Assembly (NCBI GenBank): GCA_019359545.1
Contig: JAHHHB010000002.1
Coordinates: forward strand, 62,001 to 126,000
Source of the DNA: Desmonostoc geniculatum HA4340-LM1
GTDB taxonomy: Bacteria; Cyanobacteriota; Cyanobacteriia; Cyanobacteriales; Nostocaceae
DNA: 64,000 bases
Direction of reading: 5' to 3'
Shown here piece after piece: positions 4,781 to 41,231 of the stretch. A program made the translations under genes and the position numbers. The notes below the pieces were generated by a model. It saw only the letters and a list, made by a program, of their open reading frames with translations. It ran no database searches and was not told the origin of the DNA. Within the stretch, counting starts at the first letter, position 1; every line of letters begins with the position of its first letter.

Positions 4781-4970
4781 AAATTTTCTCAGCAATGATT
4801 TTTGCGACATAATTTAATACAAACATTTATTAACGGTATATTTGCTATATATCTACCGTATATTTACGTATTTTCCATGAATATCTCCTTTTAGGAGTAA
4901 CATAGTGAAACAGCACTGCTGATTTGTACTACCTTACTTAGTCAAGTTTTGTTTCACACGTTTTGGGAAT

Positions 4971-5750
4971 ATGAGTAAACTAATTCCAGCCATCAGAGTC
5001 AAAAACTTCAGCTTCTATTACGAGACTCAAAAGATAGTTGAAGGCGTTTCAATGGATATTTACCAAAACCAAGTCACGGCAATTATTGGTTCTAGTGGTT
5101 GTGGCAAGTCTACTTTTCTTAAATCGTTAAATCGCATGGGTGAATTAGAAGCAGAAGTGAGTGTTGAAGGAAGAGTAGAATTTTTTGGACAGAACATTTA
5201 TGAGCGCCGTGTCAATTTAAGTAGGCTACGTCGCCAAATTAGTATGGTTTTTCCCAAGCCAAATCTTTTTCCCATGAGCGTTTATGATAATGTTGCTTAT
5301 GGGGTGAAATTAGTGGGATGGCATCCGAAAGTAGAATTAGATGCGATCGTTGAGTCTGCCATCAAAGCAGCCGATCTTTGGGATGAACTGAAAAATAAGC
5401 TGCACAAATCTGCTTTAGAACTTTCCGGCGGACAACAACAAAGACTATGCATTGCTCGTGCTTTAGCAGTTAAACCAAAAGTTTTGCTGATGGATGAACC
5501 TTGTTCAGGCCTCGATCCTCTTGGTAGTATGCAAATTGAAAATTTGATTCATAACTTGCGCTCTGACTTGACAATTGTGATTGTTACCCACAACATGCAG
5601 CAAGTTACTAGATTATCTGATTTTACGGCTTTCTTTTACACTAATGAAAACCGTATTACTCAAATAGTTGAATTTGGTACTACAAATAAAATTTTTACTA
5701 ATCCCGTTGATTCCCGTACCCGCGATTATGTTTTTGCCCGCGTCAGTTAA
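4971..5750 (+). CDS. pstB: Second PstB-like ATPase, Q-loop altered
   Basis: Paralogue of the preceding PstB, of identical length and closely similar throughout. Walker A GSSGCGKST, signature LSGGQQQRL, Walker B VLLMDEPCSGLDP and H-loop IVTHNMQQ are intact. The Q-loop reads MVFPKPNLFP: residue 95 is Pro (codon CCC at 5253-5255) where the first copy has Gln (CAA). That Gln normally links ATP and Mg to the permease. Two pstB genes are common in cyanobacterial pst operons. This copy may have changed coupling or a regulatory role. It has its own 327-bp upstream spacer. Confidence 0.9.
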   Translation: MSKLIPAIRVKNFSFYYETQKIVEGVSMDIYQNQVTAIIGSSGCGKSTFLKSLNRMGELEAEVSVEGRVEFFGQNIYERRVNLSRLRRQISMVFPKPNLFPMSVYDNVAYGVKLVGWHPKVELDAIVESAIKAADLWDELKNKLHKSALELSGGQQQRLCIARALAVKPKVLLMDEPCSGLDPLGSMQIENLIHNLRSDLTIVIVTHNMQQVTRLSDFTAFFYTNENRITQIVEFGTTNKIFTNPVDSRTRDYVFARVS

Positions 5751-5819
5751 AATCTTTCTGACAGCAGAATTGGTGAATTCAAAAACCAGAATGGTCTACG
5801 CCCTGCTGCGCCTCTGCGT

Positions 5820-5856
5820 GTTAGCGTTCGCGTAGCGTCTCGTAGAGAAGCGGGGT
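5820..5856. repeat. REP-like repeat
   Basis: GCGTTCGCGTAGCGTCTCGT followed by AGAGAAGCGG, the same dispersed element as at 14-40, here between pstB' and the MITE-like element. Confidence 0.65.
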
Positions 5857-5940
5857 GTAGCCCGATAAATTATCCCGCAATTATGCAACACCAATTTAAT
5901 TTAGACGCCCTTCAAGCTTTTTTGTGTTGAGTAATACTAA

Positions 5941-6094
5941 TATAGGAATCATATTTGATTTCTGAAAAATTTAAGTATTTGTAGGGTGTGTTAGGCGTAA
6001 GCCGTAACGCACCAAAGCCTTAAGAATGGTGCCGTACTCTCGCCGATAACGCACGCTACCAAGTATCTTTTCCGAAACCAAATATGAGTCCTAT
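5941..6094. mobile_element. MITE-like element, copy 1
   Basis: About 154 bp with terminal inverted repeats of some 30 bp: left end TATAGGAATCATATTTGATT, right end complementary TATAGGACTCATATTTGGTT. The core carries GTAGGGTGTGTTAGGCGTAA and ends in the complementary CGCACGCTAC. There is no coding capacity. A core of about 80 bp is repeated almost identically at 35955-36040. It is probably mobilised in trans by a transposase not seen here. Confidence 0.75.
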
Positions 6095-6134
6095 ACTTAA
6101 GAAAAGTATCTACTTTAGACCACCTAAATAGAAA

Positions 6135-7421
6135 ATGAAATGTCCCCGGTGCAATTCTACTTCATATCGTAAAAATGGCCGTCGGAATGACAAGCAGAAT
6201 TACCTCTGCAAAAATTGTGGTAAACAATTCCTTGAGCCGACATTTTCTAGTTTGCTGGAAACTGATTTGATTGCGAACAGCAACGGGCACAGTCAACTAA
6301 CTACGACTGAAACTAGGCAACTTGCTTTAGCAAAAAAACTATCACCAGAAAATTTTACAGAAACAAATTTTAGCTCTTTTAGTTCCATATTAGCGGAAGA
6401 ATTACGGAAGATTTTATTATCACCTGATTGGCTACAATCTGATGCTTTCAATCAATTCATCCAAACATATCAGAACAAACAGGAAATTAAATATAACTTA
6501 AAAACAGGAATTTCGCTTTTACTTTTAGATGCAGAAAACCTAAAATTAGATATTAATTCCGAATTATTTTTAGGTAGTGTATGTGAATATCCTCTGGAAG
6601 TTAAATTAGCATTTGCTAACTGGAGAAACCCAAGTATTGGTAAGCAGGATATTGAACTATATAACCGTGGCTATCAACTTGTTCATGTACCCGGAGGTAA
6701 AGATAGTGCTGATGCAAAAATGATTGCATTTGGCGCTTCTGTCTTAAGGTCTTATCCAACAGTTAAAGAAATTTTAGTCTGTTCTGGCGATGGAATTTTA
6801 ATTCACCTGTGTAACGAACTCCAAAACCAGGGGTTGACTGTCTACTTAGTGCGTAGACAAGGACAAAGTTTGCATATAGAGAACCGGAACACTGGCGACT
6901 TGACTCATTATTCCATAACAATGGCCAGAGAAGTTCCATCCTTAGAACAAGTAGTTGAGCAAATTCAAGATTTAATTAAAAATGAACAAAACTCAATCAA
7001 TGCTCGATTACACAGTTTAGCAGCTATTGCCAATTTATTTGAAGAAAGATGCAATCTGAATACCAATCATAATCAAAAGCAGCCAGAAATTGAAGAAATA
7101 ATTTCTCTTCCAGATGAATCATCTGCGAAATCTATCAAAGAGCAAGAAGGAGAAATTTTTCCTCAATTTTTTGATAAAGAAACATTAGATAAATTTTTAT
7201 TAAAGATAATTCAAGATTTCCAAATAAGATATCCTAAAATTAAATTATCTGTGTCAAAACTAGGTACAGAGATACAGAAAATAACCGGAGAATCTCCTAA
7301 TTCAATTGTTAAAAAATTAAAGCTAGGTTCTAATTTTACAAAATATTTGCAATCATCCTCTGCATTTAAATTAAAAGCAAGTGGCAGGGAATATGAGGTC
7401 ATACCGCTATTCTTTGAGTAG
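6135..7421 (+). CDS. Zinc-ribbon/NYN/LOTUS-like fusion protein
   Basis: Unusual 428-residue fusion. Residues 1-32 form an IS1/InsA-type zinc ribbon (C3-x2-C6, C25-x2-C28, with KNG and KQNYLCKNCG). About residues 130-270 look like a NYN/PIN-type RNase domain: LLLLDAENLKLDI, then KDSADAKM and VCSGDGILIHL, supplying the spaced acidic residues of LabA/DUF88-like proteins. The C-terminus (about 350-428: IRYPKIKLSVSKLGTEIQ and on) resembles an OST-HTH/LOTUS RNA-binding winged helix. A role in RNA cleavage or binding is inferred. The transposase-type ribbon may be a domain capture. It stands alone, 40 bp after a MITE. The next gene is co-directional. Confidence 0.75.
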   Translation: MKCPRCNSTSYRKNGRRNDKQNYLCKNCGKQFLEPTFSSLLETDLIANSNGHSQLTTTETRQLALAKKLSPENFTETNFSSFSSILAEELRKILLSPDWLQSDAFNQFIQTYQNKQEIKYNLKTGISLLLLDAENLKLDINSELFLGSVCEYPLEVKLAFANWRNPSIGKQDIELYNRGYQLVHVPGGKDSADAKMIAFGASVLRSYPTVKEILVCSGDGILIHLCNELQNQGLTVYLVRRQGQSLHIENRNTGDLTHYSITMAREVPSLEQVVEQIQDLIKNEQNSINARLHSLAAIANLFEERCNLNTNHNQKQPEIEEIISLPDESSAKSIKEQEGEIFPQFFDKETLDKFLLKIIQDFQIRYPKIKLSVSKLGTEIQKITGESPNSIVKKLKLGSNFTKYLQSSSAFKLKASGREYEVIPLFFE

Positions 7422-7502
7422 AGAGTTTCTGAACATTTACCTAGAACTTGAGTCCATAATTCAGTATTATGTAAAATGATGTAAATAAATGTAAATATAA
7501 AA

Positions 7503-8207
7503 ATGCAGGATAAAGTCGTCGTTATTGTCGGTGCTACTGGTGGCATTGGTTCAGCCTTAACACACAAACTTGCGCCTACTGGAGTACGGTTAGTACTGGC
7601 TGCGAGAGATGCGGTGCGTTTAACCAAACTGGCTGCTGATTTACCAGGGCAAGTTTTGACTGTTACTACTGATATCACCAATCCTCAACAGGTAGATGCT
7701 TTGATCGAAAAAACTGTTGCTGAGTTTGGTCAAATCGATATTTTGGTGAATGCTGCTGGTGCTGGTATACTCAAGCCTTACAATAGCTTGGAGCCTGGTG
7801 ATTTAGACAAGATGCTGGATGTGAACTTAAAAGGCAGCTTTTACACTACTCAGGCGGCTGCCCAAGAGATGCAAAAGCGCAAATCTGGTCACATCTGTAA
7901 CGTGGTAGGAATTCTCGGCAAGCATTCGATGGGGATGGCGGCGGCTTATTCTGCTTCTAAGTTTGGTGTTGTGGGTTTCAGCAAGTGCATGGCAGAAGAA
8001 CTCAAGCGCTTTGGCATCAAGTTCACGCTATTCTACTTTGGTGGGGTAGATTCTCCTTTTTGGGATAACGTCAACCTAAAAGTAGACCGGAAAAAAATGC
8101 TTAGTCCTGAAACTGCGGCCAATGCAATTTTCTTTGCCCTTTCTGCCGAACCGCAAGCTGTACCAATGGAAATTAACATTCAACCTGATAGTCATCTGTT
8201 CTTTTAG
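7503..8207 (+). CDS. SDR family oxidoreductase
   Basis: Short-chain dehydrogenase/reductase of 234 residues with a Rossmann fold. The NAD(P)-binding glycine motif is VGATGGIGSAL (about residues 9-18), with DITNPQQVD for the adenine pocket and NAAGAG. The catalytic pair is in AAYSASKFG (Tyr-x3-Lys), preceded by the HICNVVGILGK strand. The C-terminus is short, as in classical SDRs. The substrate cannot be read from sequence. It lies about 100 bp before the 4-hydroxyphenylpyruvate dioxygenase gene on the same strand, but nothing ties it to tyrosine catabolism. Confidence 0.88.
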   Translation: MQDKVVVIVGATGGIGSALTHKLAPTGVRLVLAARDAVRLTKLAADLPGQVLTVTTDITNPQQVDALIEKTVAEFGQIDILVNAAGAGILKPYNSLEPGDLDKMLDVNLKGSFYTTQAAAQEMQKRKSGHICNVVGILGKHSMGMAAAYSASKFGVVGFSKCMAEELKRFGIKFTLFYFGGVDSPFWDNVNLKVDRKKMLSPETAANAIFFALSAEPQAVPMEINIQPDSHLFF

Positions 8208-32279: not shown

Positions 32280-33767
32280 CTAAAAACAGGAATTAAGTTG
32301 CACTGGAATTTTAATGATAAACTCACTTCCTTTGCCAAAAGCAGAGATACATTGCAATTGACCACCATGTTTTTCTACAATAATTTGATAACTGATAGAT
32401 AACCCTAATCCGGTGCCTTTACCAACAGGTTTAGTGGTGAAAAATGGATCGAATAATCGCTTTTGTAAACTTTCCGGAATTCCAGAACCATTATCACCAA
32501 TCCGAATAATTACTTCCCTATTATCAATAACTTCAGTACAAACGCGAATTTGGGGCATTGAGCATTGGGCATTGGAAGTCTGGGAAGCTTTTTTATAACC
32601 TCCCCACACTCCCCCTGCCTCCCCTGCCCCCTGCCCCCCACTCCCCACTTCCTCTTCTATAGCATCAATAGCATTTGCTAAAATATTCATAAATACCTGA
32701 TTGAGTAGCCCAGGGTAACACTCAACTAGGGGAAGATTTCCGTATTTTTTAATCAAGTTTATGGTTTTACCCGTTTGATGATTTTTGAAACGACTTTGTA
32801 AAATTAACAAAGTACTATCAATACCTTCGTGGATATCAACTAATTTTTTCTCAGATTCATCAAGGCGGGAAAAATTTCGCAAGGAAAGAATGATTTGCTC
32901 GATTCGTTTTGTACCTACCTCCATAGAGTTGAGAAGATTAGGAAGATCCTTGGTTAAAAAATCAAGTTCAATTTGAGCGATCGCATTTTTAATTTCTACT
33001 TCTGGTTCAGGATAACATTGTTGGTACAATCTAATTAAACTCAGCAAATTCTGACTATATTCGATGGCATGGACAAGATTACCAGCAATAAAGTTGACTG
33101 GGTTGTTAATTTCGTGGGCAATTCCAGCCACGAGTTGTCCCAAGGCAGCCATTTTTTCATTCTGGATTAATCTGGTATAATTTTATTGCAGATCCCGGAA
33201 CCCTGCTTTGGCAACTCTCGATTGTTCTTCTACCTGCTGTAATTGAACTAGTGTTAAGACATGAATTTGAGAGTAGGCTAAAAGTAATTGATGGAAATCA
33301 ACCAACCTATATTTTCCGGATGTACTTTTAACTAAAATCGGCTCATAGGCAATTTCGTGTGGTCGTTGCAAAGTTACCTCAGTAGCTTTGACAATGATTG
33401 TATCTTCAGAAAGTACTAATATATCTCTCTCGAAAAACTTGTAGAGAATTCCAATTGGCCTGAGAGAAAATAGTGATAAACTATAGGGATGGCTCATATG
33501 CTCAAAGAATTTCCGCCGTGAAATCATCCCCATATATTCTTGATTATTATTCAGAATAATTCCTGGCAGTAAAGGCTCTTGATTAAAAAGCGTAGCTAAA
33601 TCATTGCCGGGACGCTCTATTTCTATGTGAACCTGCCAAAAGGGTAATTCTTGTAAAGTTGACTCTAATCGCAAGTTCGGCTGATTAGCATTTTTTATGC
33701 CACCTGTAGCCATCATACTCTCAAGACTCGACTGTTGAGGTAATATTTGTGGTAACATTCTGAACAA
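32280..33767 (-). pseudogene. Histidine kinase split by one in-frame stop
   Basis: A single frame from ATG at 33767 to 32280 would encode 495 residues, but TAA at 33183-33185 interrupts it after AKAGFRDLQ. The N-terminal part is a CBS-like input (PEYMGMISRRKFFEHMS-type pattern, LVDFHQLLLAYSQ). Immediately after the stop, in the same frame, come NYTRLIQNEKMAALGQLVAG and AHEINNP (HisKA), then HATPase (ILANAIDAIEE, IGDNGSGIP, LFDPFFTTKPVGKG). A CAA-to-TAA change would explain it. A repeat-coded insert lies in the HATPase at the same loop as in the 19021 kinase. An internal start at 33152 lacks a ribosome site. Confidence 0.8.
32555..32655. repeat. STRR-type repeat inside kinase
   Basis: GGGCATTGAGCATTGGGCATT, AAGCTTTTTTATAACCTCCC and CCCCTGCC/CCCCACT copies, in frame within the HATPase region. 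Confidence 0.8.
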
Positions 33768-34191: not shown

Positions 34192-34256
34192 ATTGCCATA
34201 GGAAGATATGGTAAAGACTTATCGTGTAATACTTCTTAGGCTTGATATTATTTAAT

Positions 34257-35837
34257 ATGCTAAACCGTCGCCAGTTTTTGCTGCGTTCCGCTGTCACAGC
34301 AGGTGGAATTATCACCACGGATGTTGTATCAAAGTCACAAGTTTTTGCGGAAGCACCTGCAATTATCACCTCTGATAAAATGCGTCCTGGTATACCTTAT
34401 GGCGTAGCTAGCGGAGATATATCCAAGGATAGCATTGTGATTTGGAGTAAGAGCGATCGCCCTGCCAAAATGATCGTAGAATATTCCACTAGTGAGTCTT
34501 TTAAAAATGTGCAGCGAGTTCTGGGGCCAAATGCTTTAAAAGACAGTGACTTTACAGCACGACTTTTTTTGAGGAATTTACCACCAGACCAAAAAATATT
34601 TTATCGGGTGATTTTCCAAAATTTAGATTATAAAAATACCTATAGCGCAGCTGTCAAAGGCAGTTTCCGGACTCCCCCCAAATATAGAAGAGATATATTC
34701 TTTGTTTGGGGTGGCGACACCGCCGGTCAAGGATGGGGAATTAATCCTGAGTTTGGTGGAATGAAAATTTATGAAACCATGCGCCAACTTAATCCAGACT
34801 TTTTCATTCATTCTGGCGATAATATTTATGCTGATGGTCCAATTCAAGCACAAGTTACCTTAGATAATGGCACAATTTGGAAAAATATTACTACACCAGA
34901 AAAATCCAAAGTTGCAGAAACCCTGACAGAATTTCGTGGCAATTATATCTACAATTTACTAGATGAAAATATTAAGCGTTTTAACGCAGAAGTTCCCATG
35001 TTGGCACAGTGGGACGACCACGAAATCACAAATAACTGGTATCCTGGAGAAGTTCTTTTAAGCGACGATCGCTATAAAGTTAAAGATGTTAACTTGCTAG
35101 CCCAAAGGGGAAGGCAAGCATTTTTAGAATATATGCCTATTGGGTATGAAACAAACAATCTAGATAAAGCGAGAATTTATCGCTCCTTTAAGTATAGCCC
35201 ATTATTAGATATTTTCATGTTGGATGAGCGCACTTATCGAGGACCAAATACTTCTAATAATCAATCGATACCAAGTAAAGAAACGGAATTTTTAAGCAGA
35301 ACACAAATACAATGGTTAAAAAGGCAATTACTATCATCAAAAGCAACATGGAAAGTAATTGCTAGTGATATGCCTTTGGGATTGATAGTTAGAGACGGTA
35401 CCACAGATTTTGAAGCTTGGGCTAACGGAGACGGCCCGGCTTTAGGAAGAGAATTAGAACTTGCAGATTTACTAAGATTTATCAAAAACAAAAATATCCA
35501 GAATGTGGTTTGGTTAACTGCTGATGTACATTATGCAGCAGCTCACTATTACAACCCTGCAAAAGCACAGTTTACCGACTTTAAACCTTTTTGGGAATTC
35601 GTCGCCGGTCCTTTGAACTCTGGCACATTTGGCCCTAACCAATTGGAAAATACTTTTGGTCCACAATTGGTATTTCAAAGCCTTCCTGAAGGTACAAAAG
35701 CAAATCGACCACCAAGTGAAGGTTTACAATTCTTTGGAGGAGTCAAAATTAATGCAAATACAAAAGTCATGACAGTAACCCTGCGTAACTTGGAAGGGAA
35801 AATTGTTTACAGTGTAGATTTGCCACCAGAAAAGTAA
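34257..35837 (+). CDS. phoD: PhoD-type alkaline phosphatase
   Basis: Secreted calcium/iron-dependent phosphodi-/monoesterase of the PhoD family, about 526 residues from the Met at 34257. A Tat signal is visible at the start: MLNRRQFLLRSAVTAGG (twin Arg), cleaved near VFAEAPA. The N-terminal beta domain (about 45-145) precedes the catalytic core: FVWGGDTAGQG, FFIHSGDNIYADGP, AQWDDHEITNNWYPGE and WLTADVHYAAAHYYNP supply the metal-binding Asp, Asn and His residues. Expected to release phosphate outside the cytoplasmic membrane for uptake by the pst transporter. Confidence 0.93.
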   Translation: MLNRRQFLLRSAVTAGGIITTDVVSKSQVFAEAPAIITSDKMRPGIPYGVASGDISKDSIVIWSKSDRPAKMIVEYSTSESFKNVQRVLGPNALKDSDFTARLFLRNLPPDQKIFYRVIFQNLDYKNTYSAAVKGSFRTPPKYRRDIFFVWGGDTAGQGWGINPEFGGMKIYETMRQLNPDFFIHSGDNIYADGPIQAQVTLDNGTIWKNITTPEKSKVAETLTEFRGNYIYNLLDENIKRFNAEVPMLAQWDDHEITNNWYPGEVLLSDDRYKVKDVNLLAQRGRQAFLEYMPIGYETNNLDKARIYRSFKYSPLLDIFMLDERTYRGPNTSNNQSIPSKETEFLSRTQIQWLKRQLLSSKATWKVIASDMPLGLIVRDGTTDFEAWANGDGPALGRELELADLLRFIKNKNIQNVVWLTADVHYAAAHYYNPAKAQFTDFKPFWEFVAGPLNSGTFGPNQLENTFGPQLVFQSLPEGTKANRPPSEGLQFFGGVKINANTKVMTVTLRNLEGKIVYSVDLPPEK

Positions 35838-35949: not shown

Positions 35950-36073
35950 GCGAGTATTTGTAGGGTGTGTTAGGCGTAAGCCGTAACGCACCAAAGCCTT
36001 AAGAATGGTGCCGTACTCTCGCCGATAACGCACCCTACGTATCTTTTCAAAAATCAAATACTAGTCCTATATA
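35950..36073. mobile_element. MITE-like element, copy 2, left end lost
   Basis: A core of about 80 bp, identical to copy 1 (GTAGGGTGTGTTAGGCGTAA to the GATAACGCAC end), and a right terminal repeat ending AAATACTAGTCCTATA. The left terminal repeat is missing. It abuts the gene fragment that follows. Confidence 0.7.
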
Positions 36074-36424
36074 GAAACTGGGAATCACATTGCACAAGCT
36101 AATTCCAAGCGATATGAAATTGCTCAAGCTTTTGCTGATATTTTAGTGAAAGTAGCAGATGGAGTTATACCTTGGGGAATTTTTGAAACTCAAGTGGGTG
36201 AACTTTGGAATTCAGAACAATTGAAGCAGTTAGCTACTGAATGGCCGACTCTAGCATCTAGAAATATTTCTATTGGAGATGCAACAATTAAGACTGTGGC
36301 TGAATATTACGCCAAAACTAGTAGCACATTTCAAGTGGAAATTTTTACGGGCGATGGGGGACTCAAGGCTTATGAACCAGCTACCCCGCCACCTACGCGT
36401 CGAAGCAGTCGCAAAAAAGAGTAA
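36074..36424 (+). pseudogene. 5'-truncated gene next to MITE
   Basis: The frame starts without a start codon exactly at the MITE end: ETGNHIAQANSKRYEIAQAF, then VIPWGIFETQVGELWNSEQL, VEIFTGDGGLKAYEP and a basic tail TRRSSRKKE. About 116 codons. The ETGNHI segment and the late TGDGGLKAY acidic motif suggest the second half of a PIN-like domain, but this is a weak assignment. The N-terminus appears replaced by the MITE. A later Met at 36146 could serve as start, with no ribosome site seen. Confidence 0.5.
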
Positions 36425-36438
36425 AATATCCTTGAGCG
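36421..36438 (+). repeat. 18-bp direct repeat, left copy
   Basis: GTAAAATATCCTTGAGCG, identical to 38502-38519. The copies bracket the AAA ATPase/DUF4276 gene pair. The left copy overlaps the stop codon of the truncated gene. Confidence 0.8.
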
Positions 36439-36574
36439 TAGGCGTAGCCAAACCCAGGCATTGCCCTTTGCCTGTAAATCAGGTTACCATTAAATACTCT
36501 GGTAATTCTATCCATAATTACTAGCAACTATGACATTAATAAAATATAGATGATTAGCTAAATAGGAAAATATA

Positions 36575-37783
36575 ATGGAAGGTAAAAGATTTATCCATTC
36601 TATTCGGTTAAAAAATTTTCTTTCCTACGGAAATGAAGATGAAGAAATTGAACTGCAACCGCTTAATGTTTTAATTGGGGCTAACACTTCAGGTAAATCG
36701 AATTTAATTGAAGCAATTGGAATTTTAAAAGCAACACCAACAGACTTACCCGCTCCATTTCGGCAAGGTGGAGGCGTTAGTGAATTTCTGTGGAAGGGTG
36801 GGCAGGAAAATCTAGTAGCCAAAATAGAAGCTACTTTAGATTACCCTCAAAGACCCCAAAATTTACGTTATCAACTTAGTTTGACAGCGATTGGTCAAAG
36901 AAGACTACTAGAGCTAGTTGATGAAGCTATAGAGAATGAACGACCATATCCAGGATCAGATGATGTTTATTTTTACTATCGTTACCAAAGAGGTCGTCCG
37001 GTTTTAAATATTAATAAGTTAGACGATGACTTCAACATTCAACGTACTCGTACTCTTCAGCGAGAAGATTTAATTCCAGATCAGTCAGTCTTATCTCAGC
37101 GAACAGATCCAGATTTGTATCCAGAACTCTCTTATCTCAGCACTACATTTTCTAATATAGCTTTATATCGTGACTGGCAGATGGGGCGATATTCAGTACC
37201 AAGAAATGCTCAAAAGCCTGACTTACCCGAACATCCTCTACTAGAAGATGGTAGTAATCTAGGTCTATTTTTAAACAATTTAAAAAATAAAATAGGTCAT
37301 AGAAAAATTATTGAAAAGCTAAAAAAGTTTTATGAAGCAGCCGAAGAACTAGGTGTAATCATATCTGGCGGTACAGTACAGATAATTATTCGTGAAGAGG
37401 GTTTGATTGAACCAATTCCGGCAAATCGATTATCTGATGGTACACTTCGTTATTTATTTTTAATGGCTTTACTGCTTGACCCGACTCCACCACCACTTAT
37501 TTGTCTTGAAGAACCAGAGATTGGTTTACATCCAGATATTTTATCCACAATTGCAGAAATGCTAATCGACGCATCACAGAGAACACAATTAATAGTGACA
37601 ACTCATTCTGATGCTTTAGTTTCTGCTTTGAGTGAATATCCAGAATCAGTAATAGTTTGTGAGCGAGATAAAAAAGGTAGCCACTTCCATCGTCAGGAAC
37701 CTGAGAGATTGGAAAAATGGTTAGAAAAGTATACGCTTGGAGATCTCTGGCGGATGGGGCAAATTGGTGGAAATCGTTGGTAA
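36575..37783 (+). CDS. AAA_21-type ATPase (OLD/RecF-like)
   Basis: 402-residue SMC/RecF-like ABC ATPase of the AAA_21 group. RLKNFLSYGNEDEEIELQPL leads into Walker A LIGANTSGKSNLIEAIG (about residue 35). LSDGTLRYLFLMALLL is a degenerate signature. Walker B is PPLICLEEPEIGLHPD and the H-loop is QLIVTTHSDALVSAL. The central part (about 80-250) has no clear coiled coil. Single-domain ATPases like this form the sensor half of two-gene defence systems. The stop overlaps the ATG of the next gene (TAATG at 37781-37785), so the two products are translationally coupled. Confidence 0.85.
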   Translation: MEGKRFIHSIRLKNFLSYGNEDEEIELQPLNVLIGANTSGKSNLIEAIGILKATPTDLPAPFRQGGGVSEFLWKGGQENLVAKIEATLDYPQRPQNLRYQLSLTAIGQRRLLELVDEAIENERPYPGSDDVYFYYRYQRGRPVLNINKLDDDFNIQRTRTLQREDLIPDQSVLSQRTDPDLYPELSYLSTTFSNIALYRDWQMGRYSVPRNAQKPDLPEHPLLEDGSNLGLFLNNLKNKIGHRKIIEKLKKFYEAAEELGVIISGGTVQIIIREEGLIEPIPANRLSDGTLRYLFLMALLLDPTPPPLICLEEPEIGLHPDILSTIAEMLIDASQRTQLIVTTHSDALVSALSEYPESVIVCERDKKGSHFHRQEPERLEKWLEKYTLGDLWRMGQIGGNRW

Positions 37784-38490
37784 TGAACATATACATTTAT
37801 ATTGAGGGTGCTGGAGATGAAGATGATACTGAACTGCTACTCAAACCACGCCCAGGTTTTCGTAGTGGGATCAGGAGTGGAAAAGAAACCACAACTGGAC
37901 TACGCCCAGGTTTTATAAAATTTTTTCAAGAACTATATGATATTGCTGCTGAAAACATTAATATATTTATCGTTATGTGTGGATCAAGGCGTGATGCTTA
38001 TGAAAATTTTAAAACAGCTTTAGAATCTCAACCAGAAGCTTTCAATGTTTTATTAATTGATGCTGAATCTCCAGTTGATTCCACTGTTAGACCTTGGGAA
38101 CATCTCAGAAATAGAACACAAGATCAGCCTTGGATTTTAGATGCAGTTAATTTTGAAGACGATCGGTGTCACCTAATGGTGCAAACAATGGAAGCATGGT
38201 TTATTGCTGATATTGATGCTTTAACAGTATTTTATGGGGAGGGATTCAGGGAAGATGGAATCCTTCAAGGAATGGTACGCTATCATAGCGTAGAAACTGT
38301 TTCTAAAACTACTCTGAAAGTATGGCTTGAGACAGCTACTCGCCACACACAGAAGGGCAAGTATCATAAAACAAGACATGCTCCGAAGCTTTTAGCGTTG
38401 TTGAATGTAGCTAGGGTTCGTCAAGCTTCGCCGTACTGCGATCGCCTTTTCACTACACTAACTACAATCATGGCTGCATCAGCAAGCTAA
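37783..38490 (+). CDS. DUF4276-like protein, partner of ATPase
   Basis: 235 residues from ATG at 37783, one base inside the stop of the ATPase. MNIYIYIEGAGDEDDTELLL has the Glu-Gly-x-x-D/E start of DUF4276/TOPRIM-like proteins. Then come NIFIVMCGSRRDAYENF, LLIDAESPVD, CHLMVQTMEAWFIADIDAL and an HAPKLLALL C-terminal region typical of the family. TOPRIM-like partners of AAA ATPases act as nuclease effectors in PARIS and AbiL-type systems. The same role is inferred here. A direct repeat starts 11 bases after the stop. Confidence 0.78.
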   Translation: MNIYIYIEGAGDEDDTELLLKPRPGFRSGIRSGKETTTGLRPGFIKFFQELYDIAAENINIFIVMCGSRRDAYENFKTALESQPEAFNVLLIDAESPVDSTVRPWEHLRNRTQDQPWILDAVNFEDDRCHLMVQTMEAWFIADIDALTVFYGEGFREDGILQGMVRYHSVETVSKTTLKVWLETATRHTQKGKYHKTRHAPKLLALLNVARVRQASPYCDRLFTTLTTIMAASAS

Positions 38491-38501
38491 TATAACGAAG
38501 G

Positions 38502-38519
38502 GTAAAATATCCTTGAGCG
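38502..38519 (+). repeat. 18-bp direct repeat, right copy
   Basis: GTAAAATATCCTTGAGCG, identical to 36421-36438. It continues into GATCGCCCCTT, which is not shared with the left copy. Confidence 0.8.
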
Positions 38520-38570
38520 ATCGCCCCTTACCTCTAACATCACGTTATCATCGGATATTGTGGAATTTCC

Positions 38571-41231
38571 GTGCGTAACTCGATAGCATCTATGACTGCC
38601 TCTCACCCTGAAACTCCATCTACCAAACCCGATGCAAGTACTTTTATTTCTGACCATCAACAGGTGGATCGCAGTAAACTAAGTCAAATGTACCTGCACT
38701 ATGTCGAGACGAAGGATAAATATCCTCACGCGGTGTTGCTGTATCGAGTGGGAGATTTCTTTGAATGCTATTTCCAAGATGCTGTCAAACTAGCGCAAGA
38801 ATTGGAATTAGTCCTCACTAGTAAGCAAGCTGGCGAACAGGGACGAGTGGCTATGTCCGGTGTTCCGCATCACGCTTGGGAACGCTACGCGACGATGCTA
38901 GTCGAAAAAGGCTATGCAGTCGTAATTTGCGACCAAGTGGAAGATGCAGCCGAAGCTACTGGGAGATTAGTACGGCGGGAAGTAACGCGCATCCTCACTC
39001 CTGGCACTTTGCTAGAAGAAGGAATGCTCAAATCGAGTCGCAATAATTACCTGGCAGCAGTAGTAATTGCCGCAAATCATTGGGGTTTAGCTTATGCAGA
39101 CATCTCCACAGGAGAATTCCTCACCACTCAAGGCAGTGATTTAGAACATCTGACACAAGAATTAATGCGCTTGCAACCTTCGGAGGTGCTAGTTCCCACA
39201 AATGCACCGGATTTAGGTAGTTTGCTGCGTCCAGGAGAAACTTCGCCACATCTACCGGAGTGTTTGCCACCATCATTTTGTTATAGTTTGCGATCGCAAG
39301 TTCCCTTTTCCCAAGGTGAAGCTAGACCTAGATTATTGCAGAAATTTAAACTGCGATCGCTCGAAGGACTCGGTTGCGATCATCTTCCCCTCGCTGTCCG
39401 TGCAGCTGGTGGTCTTCTCGAATACCTAGAAGATACTCAAAAAGAAAACCCAATCTTCCTCCAAAGACTCCGGACTTACACAGTTACTGACTATTTAATT
39501 GTAGATAATCAAACTCGTCGTAACCTTGAAATTACTCAAACTGTCCGCGATGGCACATTTCATGGTTCCCTACTCTGGGCATTGGATAGAACGAGTACAG
39601 CAATGGGTGGGCGGGCTTTACGGCGGTGGTTATTACAACCACTAATCGATATTAAAGGCATTCGGGCGCGACAAGACACCATCGAAGAATTGATGGAAAA
39701 TACACCCCTACGTCAGGATTTGCGACAGTTGTTGCGGCAAATTTATGACTTGGAACGGCTGACGGGAAGGGCGGGTTCTGGTACTGCTAATGCCAGAGAT
39801 TTAGCAGCTTTGGCAGATTCCCTTTCACGCTTACCGGAATTATCCCACTTAGTTACTGATGCCCGTTCTCCATTCTTGAAAGCTTTACAAAAAGTGCCGT
39901 CTATTTTGTCAGAATTGGCACAAAAATTACACGCCCATCTTGTAGAGTCACCACCAATACATATAAAAGAAGGCGGATTGATTCGTCCTGGGGTGAATTC
40001 CCTGTTAGATGACAGGAAAGCGACTGTAAAAGCAGACGAACAATGGATTGCTAATTTAGAAGTTGACGAAAGAGCGAAGACGGGAATTCCCACATTAAAG
40101 GTAGGATTTAACAAAACCTTTGGTTACTATATCAGTATTTCCCGCGCCAAAGCTGATCAAGTACCCGCCAATTACATCCGCAAGCAAACCCTGACCAACG
40201 AAGAACGCTACATCACCCCAGATTTGAAGGAACGGGAAGCGCGAATTCTCACAGCGCGGGATGATTTAAATCAATTGGAATATGAAATTTTTACGGCATT
40301 GCGGGAAGAAGTTGCAGAACAGGCGGAAGTAATTCGCAATCTTTCCCGCGCAGTGGCGGCGGCGGATGTGTTGTGTGCTTTAGCTGAATTGGCGGTGCAG
40401 CAAGGTTACTGTCGTCCAGAAATGTTGTCAGGAAGAGAAATTAACATTGTTGATGGTCGTCACTCGGTGGTAGAACAGTCTTTACCTGCGGGGTTCTTTG
40501 TGCCGAATTCGACGCAATTGGGAAGAGAGTCATTAGTCATTAGTCATTTGTCATTAGCAGATGATCAAGAACAAATGACCAAGGACAAAGGACAAATAAC
40601 AAATGACAATCCCGATTTAATTATCCTCACCGGACCAAACGCCAGCGGCAAAAGTTGTTATTTGCGTCAGGTGGGATTGATTCAGTTAATGGCGCAAATT
40701 GGTAGTTTTGTACCAGCTAGATTTGCCAGATTGGGAATATGCGATCGCATTTTTACTCGTGTTGGTGCTGTGGACGATCTGGCAACTGGTCAATCTACAT
40801 TTATGGTGGAAATGAATGAAACGGCAAATATTCTCAATCATGCCACATCTCGGTCGCTGGTATTGTTAGATGAAATTGGCCGGGGAACGGCAACATTTGA
40901 TGGTCTTTCTATTGCTTGGGCGGTAGCAGAATATATCGCAATGGAAATTCGGGCGCGAACGATTTTTGCCACTCATTACCATGAGTTAAATGAACTAGCC
41001 AGCATTTTGCCGAATGTGGCTAACTATCAAGTGACAGTTAAAGAATTACCCGACCAAATTATCTTTTTGCACCAAGTCCAACCAGGAGGCGCTGATAAAT
41101 CTTACGGAATTGAAGCGGGAAGATTGGCGGGTTTACCAGCGGTAGTAATTCAACGAGCAAAACAAGTAATGGGGCAAATTGAGAAACACAGTAAGATTGC
41201 GATGGGGTTGCAAAATTTGGATATCGATTGA
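38571..41231 (+). CDS. mutS: MutS mismatch-repair protein
   Basis: DNA mismatch recognition ATPase, 886 residues. The N-terminal mismatch-binding domain has [11 protein letters not shown] (Phe-x-Glu motif) and [20 protein letters not shown]. The core and clamp follow ([32 protein letters not shown]). The ATPase has Walker [16 protein letters not shown], Walker [26 protein letters not shown] and [10 protein letters not shown]. Start GTG at 38571 or ATG at 38592 ([11 protein letters not shown]). Residues about 653-680, directly before Walker A, are encoded by an in-frame GTCATTAGTCA repeat. Confidence 0.95.
40527..40608. repeat. GTCATTAGTCA hairpin inside mutS
   Basis: GTCATTAGTCATTTGTCATT faces complementary AATGACCAAGGACAAAGGAC and AAATAACAAATGAC, an imperfect hairpin of 80 bp in frame. 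Same family as in hpd and before wecB. Confidence 0.8.

Follow-up and report, generated by a model that had tools for sequence, protein, structure and literature searches.

HEC-01, a candidate defence gene pair, between two copies of the mutS leader in Desmonostoc geniculatum and other Nostocaceae

The gene pair and the duplicated leader

The stretch of DNA analysed here, hereafter the window, comprises 64,000 nt of Desmonostoc geniculatum HA4340-LM1 (contig JAHHHB010000002.1, 62,001-126,000, forward strand), and window positions are used throughout. Upstream of mutS it carries two plus-strand genes. The first (36575..37783) encodes a 402-aa ABC/OLD-type AAA ATPase, which matched the PADLOC model PDLC04177 over model positions 3-393 of 393 (E 8.7e-185) and Pfam AAA_21 (7.4e-36). 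The second (37783..38490) encodes a 235-aa DUF4276 protein, a predicted stand-alone TOPRIM-type nuclease domain, which matched PDLC04201 over positions 1-200 of 202 (E 8e-71). Both matches are near full-length and follow the order of PADLOC HEC-01, and by its profile matches the pair is HEC-01, a catalogued candidate defence system. HEC-01A and HEC-01B share a single base in the sequence TAATG, and no other plus-strand ORF of notable size lies between the two repeat copies described below, as an earlier sequence-only reading of this DNA had noticed.

That reading had also recognised an SMC-like ATPase with a TOPRIM-like partner, and this description agrees with the features of both proteins. 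HEC-01A has the Walker A motif GANTSGKSN and E312 and E313 in the Walker B region; G35, S39-N43, E312 and E313 were invariant in 20 aligned proteins. Judged from these motifs it carries a Walker A/B ATPase of the OLD/SMC type, and its dN/dS of 0.10-0.23 in five comparisons indicates purifying selection. For HEC-01B, the best solved-structure matches of the predicted model were the C-terminal regions of OLD nucleases. The acidic residues which the reading had proposed to look for in DUF4276 were found: all 20 proteins of the alignment have E8, D93 and E95, and D12 is conserved to at least 90%. The model predicts a TOPRIM fold with conserved acidic residues. HEC-01B comes as two types, the window protein being 50-58% identical to the second type. 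In the window allele type, the DUF4276 gene has an internal repeat with 54-bp spacing (37845-37914), by which the protein gains about 20 residues; confidence of the model is low in this part (residues 12-38).

The sequence-only reading had placed the pair with the PARIS and AbiL abortive-infection systems. They share the ATPase-plus-TOPRIM plan, and HEC-01A does match the AriA (4.1e-36) and AbiLi (1.3e-22) models, although far below its HEC-01A score. The PADLOC matches of HEC-01B, taken up to E 0.1, were HEC-01B models in 13 of 13 cases, with no AriB or AbiLii model among them, and in Pfam only DUF4276 was above the cut-off, next to one sub-threshold match. Membership in PARIS or AbiL is therefore scarcely credible.

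An 18-bp repeat, GTAAAATATCCTTGAGCG, occurs in exact copies at 36421-36438 and 38502-38519, perfect as first described. The window has no third site at up to 3 mismatches, two matches were obtained in none of 100 shuffles, and a whole-genome search with up to 2 mismatches returned the two exact copies and one 2-mismatch site. Leftwards the repeat extends to 22 bp with one mismatch (36417-36438 versus 38498-38519), and it is the best-kept part of a longer duplication, 36417-36534 versus 38498-38596, with 76 of 96 aligned bases identical (79%). The latter alignment scored 81.5, whereas 500 shuffles averaged 24 and reached 40 at most. The shuffle tests on the 18-mer and on the longer alignment rule out a chance repeat, which the sequence-only reading had also thought improbable. 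A dispersed genomic repeat is disfavoured by the mere three genome sites of the 18-mer.

The right copy (38498..38596, plus strand), containing the 22-bp element that is found near mutS in relatives, directly precedes mutS as had been said, and reaches into its likely start codon (ATG 38592, in CTATGAC). The mutS gene itself (38592..41231, plus strand) was recognised as an ORF with matches to solved MutS chains, and the ORF is open from GTG 38571. On these comparisons the repeat is a duplicated mutS leader of about 97 bp, and the 18-bp mobility repeat that had been proposed is not supported. A target site duplication of a transposon is ruled out, since the repeat is a leader of this length and its interior is without a transposase. 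The left, orphan copy (36417..36534, plus strand) now occupies the leader position of HEC-01A; it terminates in CTATGAC, as at the mutS start, 40 bases before the start of the ATPase gene. It is interrupted by a 21-bp insert (36439..36459, plus strand) directly after GAGCG, at the position of a HIP1 octamer. At the HIP1 octamer GCGATCGC of the leader, short inserts of the form TAGGCGTAGCC..GGC were seen in the window and in G004, G006, G017, G022, G024, G027, G029 and G032, with a roughly common insert point. A scan for promoters and terminators gave sites no more numerous than in shuffles. A search for the leader across the genus returned no further copy, which is weak evidence against a dispersed repeat as the same search also missed the left copy itself.

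On the left, the unit borders on a remnant of another system. The truncated gene at 36065..36424 (plus strand) is what is left of PDC-M07B, which in relatives has 174 residues; of these, the window retains 56-173 (tblastn, 92%), in keeping with the truncation noted before. Full-length relatives matched PADLOC PDC-M07A/B (in G005 with 2.6e-182 and 7.2e-52), a second two-gene ATPase system which in many strains lies between PhoD and mutS. The MITE reported behind the truncated gene is real; it lies at the break of the PDC-M07 pair (35953..36050, given without strand) and has 62 matches in its own genome, a count that includes both strands of single near-palindromic copies. Further left is a PhoD-like phosphatase gene (34242..35837, plus strand; Pfam PhoD 5.9e-95), the frequent left neighbour of this slot and located upstream in many relatives.

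Some further observations concern the occupants of the slot. The PDC-M07 pair, the commonest recognised occupant in the genus, is directly upstream of mutS in L065 (G005), L075 (G014) and others. Its 174-aa PDC-M07B protein is PIN-like by eye and gave no Pfam match. A separate leader copy before PDC-M07 was not accepted; the sites resembling the 22-mer in G014 and G019 are weak (17/22). On the minus strand of the window, at 32280-33767, a histidine-kinase-like gene is split into ORFs of 290 and 194 aa, whereas its counterparts in relatives are single ORFs of about 480-507 aa, and its kin are found in the mutS slot of G006, G015, G018 and G029 and, by eye, of G067.

Orphan mutS starts in other loci

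The leader duplication was looked for in 29 other HEC-01-mutS loci, which represent 24 distinct genomes. The stretch before HEC-01A resembled the mutS leader better than all 300 shuffles in 15 loci (12 genomes). The same test did not detect the duplication in 14 loci (12 genomes), among them L107, yet the genome of L107 passed with other stretches.

The coding start of mutS, too, is present in the left copy of L188 (genus g149), L191 (g125) and Anabaena sp. 4-3 (L108, identical with L189). Tested alone, the orphan coding part scored above every one of 500 shuffles in four of 30 loci, from three genomes. In the window, where the left copy stops at ATGAC, 340 of 500 shuffles were as good, so that a position inside mutS rests on three of the 24 other genomes. 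By eye, the clear identity in L188 and L191 ends at ..AGTAAGCT, codons S-K-L, at L31 of MutS, while the local alignments continue with many gaps to mutS nucleotides 124-142. L31 corresponds to L30 of the window MutS, a point that the short left copy of the window does not reach. With this L30 begins the stretch that aligns to HTPMMQQ in the E. coli protein; in this placement M33 is aligned to the first M of MMQQ, and HTP, just outside the alignment, was placed by spelling.

Within single genomes of Komarekiella, Nodularia, Chrysosporum, g149 and g125, identity between the left and right copies was 0.81-0.87, in most cases above that of the same copy compared across these genera, and indels such as ATCTATCTATGAC in g149 are common to both leader copies. 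Such lineage-specific variants held in common would be the product of conversion between the copies or of repeated duplication.

A tandem duplication of the mutS 5′-end might have come first, with HEC-01 landing in it later by illegitimate recombination and no integrative element ever involved. No integrase was found between the leader copies, where HEC-01A and HEC-01B are the only ORFs, and the duplication spans the whole leader instead of a short core, as this order of events would have it. The end of the orphan mutS at the position equivalent to HTPMMQQ would then be a coincidence, and we hold this course of events to be possible but the less probable one.

Occupancy and history of the site in the genus and the family

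The site was followed in 53 genomes of the genus and 217 genomes of the family Nostocaceae. All 53 genomes of the genus have the mutS leader, and each has a 22-bp site, allowing up to 4 mismatches, a short way upstream of mutS. HEC-01 is complete in nine (G000, G008, G009, G012, G021, G023, G066, G069 and G072; G023 is counted here although a contig break divides the pair) and decayed or scarred in seven (G004, G013, G017, G018, G027, G033 and G075), the ATPase of G027 being without residues 1-231 although the contig runs on. At least 16 of the 53 show a clean junction in which a single leader directly follows the end of PDC-M07B and the pair is absent; some of these have a broken PDC-M07. The remaining 21 have other content at the junction or a contig end nearby. 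The sequence-only reading had proposed to compare empty sites, expecting one repeat copy there and a pair that some relatives do not have. The empty sites do hold a single leader copy, not zero or two, and with nine complete pairs in 53 genomes HEC-01 is far from universal.

Loss was seen in three forms, namely a single leader, a deletion between GCGATCGC octamers of the leader and of the DUF4276 gene (G013), and decay (G004, G018, G027, G033 and G075). Judged from the single-leader state, both genes can be lost together. The earlier proposal that the cassette had arrived, or could leave, as a unit holds in this latter part, given the single-leader genomes; a recent arrival is not supported, in view of the constancy of the site. 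The DUF4276 type of the window was matched in 14 genomes of the genus, on the mutS contig in each, and stands immediately upstream of mutS in 13 of these; in G013 there is only a weak trace, at a distance of 2 kb. G065 and G076 have DUF4276 genes of other types, away from mutS. In the family, the HEC-01B profile matched 54 of the 217 genomes, remnants included. Among the best 30 loci, mutS follows downstream on the same strand in 22, from 10 genus codes (in one, L192, at a distance of 697 bp); PhoD is downstream in L184, as in Goleter, and seven have neither mutS nor PhoD within 1.5 kb.

The slot before mutS also showed other arrangements. In Nodularia, Chrysosporum and Nostoc sp. WHI, PDC-M07 and HEC-01 stand in tandem before mutS, with mutS on a second contig in WHI and a stop within the PDC-M07A reading of Chrysosporum. 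In G070 (L146, about 4880-8000) HEC-01 is absent and a CRISPR array with Cas3g lies between the same repeats; the array has five 37-bp repeats by eye, GCTTCAATGGAGCC..GTGTAAC, and Cas3g is a 615-aa protein on the minus strand (match 7.3e-217). A 151-159-aa protein with an acidic tail is the nearest ORF upstream of mutS in G002, G003, G010, G020 and G028; its version in G003 bears a weak resemblance to DUF2267/TerB that falls short of the Pfam cut-offs. Mutual exclusion of PDC-M07 and HEC-01 is not claimed, as G023 has both, the counts are small and the genomes are related.

The adjacency to mutS might also mean that the pair works with it, as an accessory nuclease of mismatch repair or in mutation-rate control, with the same leader driving both. 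The same-strand position before mutS in 22 of the best 30 loci, a leader common to both in half of the tested genomes and the chemical plausibility of an SMC-like ATPase with a TOPRIM nuclease in repair would fit such a role. It is difficult to reconcile with a profile match in just a quarter or so of the family (remnants included), with decay or absence in most of the genus, with relatives that have no adjoining mutS (L117, L124, L099, L100 and L102; L119, L120 and L122 end too soon to judge), and with a slot in which alleles swap and which can hold PDC-M07 or CRISPR/Cas3g instead. A function in mutS-dependent repair is very improbable on this balance.

Trees of mutS, HEC-01A and HEC-01B from 15 genomes agree in Nodularia with Chrysosporum, Komarekiella with Nostoc B(2019), and an Anabaena group, some of the agreeing branches having weak support below the star threshold; this agreement favours an old residence. 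Between the window and ATCC 43529, dS was 0.29 for mutS, 0.35 for PhoD, 0.20 for HEC-01B and 1.12 for HEC-01A, and between the window and JL33 it was 0.57 for mutS, 0.29 for HEC-01A and 0.24 for HEC-01B; we read these values as exchange of HEC-01 alleles within Nostoc. HEC-01A had a lower dS than mutS in 67 of 91 pairs and HEC-01B in 41 of 91, which makes it unlikely that all parts descended strictly vertically. A quick tree was built from 505 mutS bases in 61 rows, and on it complete HEC-01 against the rest took 9 changes; 10 or fewer were needed by 1 of 200 random label sets, with a mean of 15. The early branches in the Nostoc part of the mutS tree are mostly HEC-01 or remnant rows, few of these branches being strong. 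One clade (SH-aLRT 92, not starred) contains the intact pair in G009 and G069, the decayed pair in G004 and the replaced one in G070.

A truly mobile minimal cassette, which a recombinase acting in trans repeatedly inserts at the mutS leader, duplicating the leader, and still excises, would account for the likeness of left and right copies within a genome and for indels such as that of g149, for the clean empty junctions, for the CRISPR array and Cas3g gene that fill the repeat-bounded slot of G070 and for the low dS of the pair relative to mutS between the window and JL33. The unit itself has no recombinase gene, the window type of DUF4276 is found in the genus only at mutS, with other types elsewhere (G065, G076), and the HEC-01A and HEC-01B trees pair the genomes as the mutS tree does, partly with weak support. 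We regard such continued mobility as unlikely. No excised form of the unit was seen in the genomes compared. HEC-01B had no match in 50,697 phage records, and a phage origin was set aside on this ground; 222 plasmid records matched the ATPase, at about 29% identity or less among the matches listed.

Interpretation and comparison with known systems

The HEC-01 unit is best read as an old, losable insertion at mutS that persists by inheritance and allele exchange and carries a split candidate defence system of the OLD type, and we give this reading a probability of roughly 0.7. It builds on the observed sequences, duplication, conservation of the site, loss states and fold; the defence role would follow by analogy.

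The origin and fate of the unit may be depicted as follows. An insertion would have lodged the unit in the 5′-end of mutS, leaving an orphan leader, and in some genera the start of the mutS gene, on its left, and a second leader with the intact mutS on its right. To judge from this anatomy, the left leader would serve HEC-01 as promoter, and recombination between the two leader copies would remove the unit while mutS stays intact. Persistence would be due to inheritance and allele exchange among relatives, and loss to leader-leader recombination, to deletion between HIP1 octamers or to decay. HEC-01 would in effect be an OLD-family nuclease split into two proteins. General knowledge of OLD, Gabija and PARIS provides the scheme of sensing, gating and cutting: HEC-01A, the SMC/OLD-type ATPase, would sense infection and hold or gate HEC-01B, the stand-alone TOPRIM nuclease would cut nucleic acid once released, and the outcome would be abortive.

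A wider and rather improbable extension may be put forward. The mutS 5′-end would be an attachment site across phyla, and the integrase-less HEC-01 unit would excise at a low rate via its leaders, each loss swapping the leader that drives mutS; phage defence and mutation rate would thereby be coupled at one switchable locus that also takes PDC-M07 and CRISPR/Cas3g.

Literature searches returned no report of HEC-01 at mutS or of a flanking leader duplication, and nothing on DUF4276 or PDC-M07; a search on a mutS hotspot with defence and cyanobacteria gave nothing related, judged by title or the start of the abstract. One paper lists HEC-01 among the systems of Desulfovibrio piger. Several Hma-embedded candidates (HECs), including HEC-06, have assay support; most PDCs are without it. 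A catalogued candidate system, uncharacterised in the literature searched, is thus placed at a recurrent site across the family, the start of mutS. Gain and loss of a defence unit may be linked to the control of mutS, and intact, scarred, empty and replaced sites offer natural pairs with and without the unit.

The OLD-family nucleases (OLD, GajA and the effector of retron Eco8) are the nearest in plan, but the single polypeptide of OLD corresponds to two proteins in HEC-01. PARIS (AriA/AriB) has the two-gene plan of ATPase and TOPRIM in common with HEC-01, whereas its partner belongs to the AriB family, DUF4435, and that of HEC-01 to DUF4276. With regard to the site, the mutS-rpoS variable region of E. 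coli is located on the opposite side of mutS, and its genes differ from those of the HEC-01 locus. The neighbourhood of mutS is likewise mosaic there (PMC4209514).

Closer in anatomy are elements that reside within mutS in Beta- and Gammaproteobacteria. According to PMC5296598, those examined sit in the HTPMMQQ motif, leave an orphan start of the host mutS upstream and supply a new promoter and start; they include that of Vibrio splendidus 12B01, have sizes between 4 and more than 150 kb and were identified through their integrase. Measured against that account, the HEC-01 loci with a duplicated leader likewise have an orphan mutS leader on the left, which in three genomes extends into the mutS N-terminus, and a second leader and start for an intact mutS on the right, with the proposed junction of L188 and L191 at the position equivalent to HTPMMQQ. 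The HEC-01 unit differs in being 2.1 kb long and without an integrase, in having two leaders that are alike and of the same family, and in occurring at one site across many genera of Nostocaceae. The comparison suggests that cyanobacteria, too, have the anatomy of an element inside mutS known from proteobacteria, and that the insertion point in MutS is the same.
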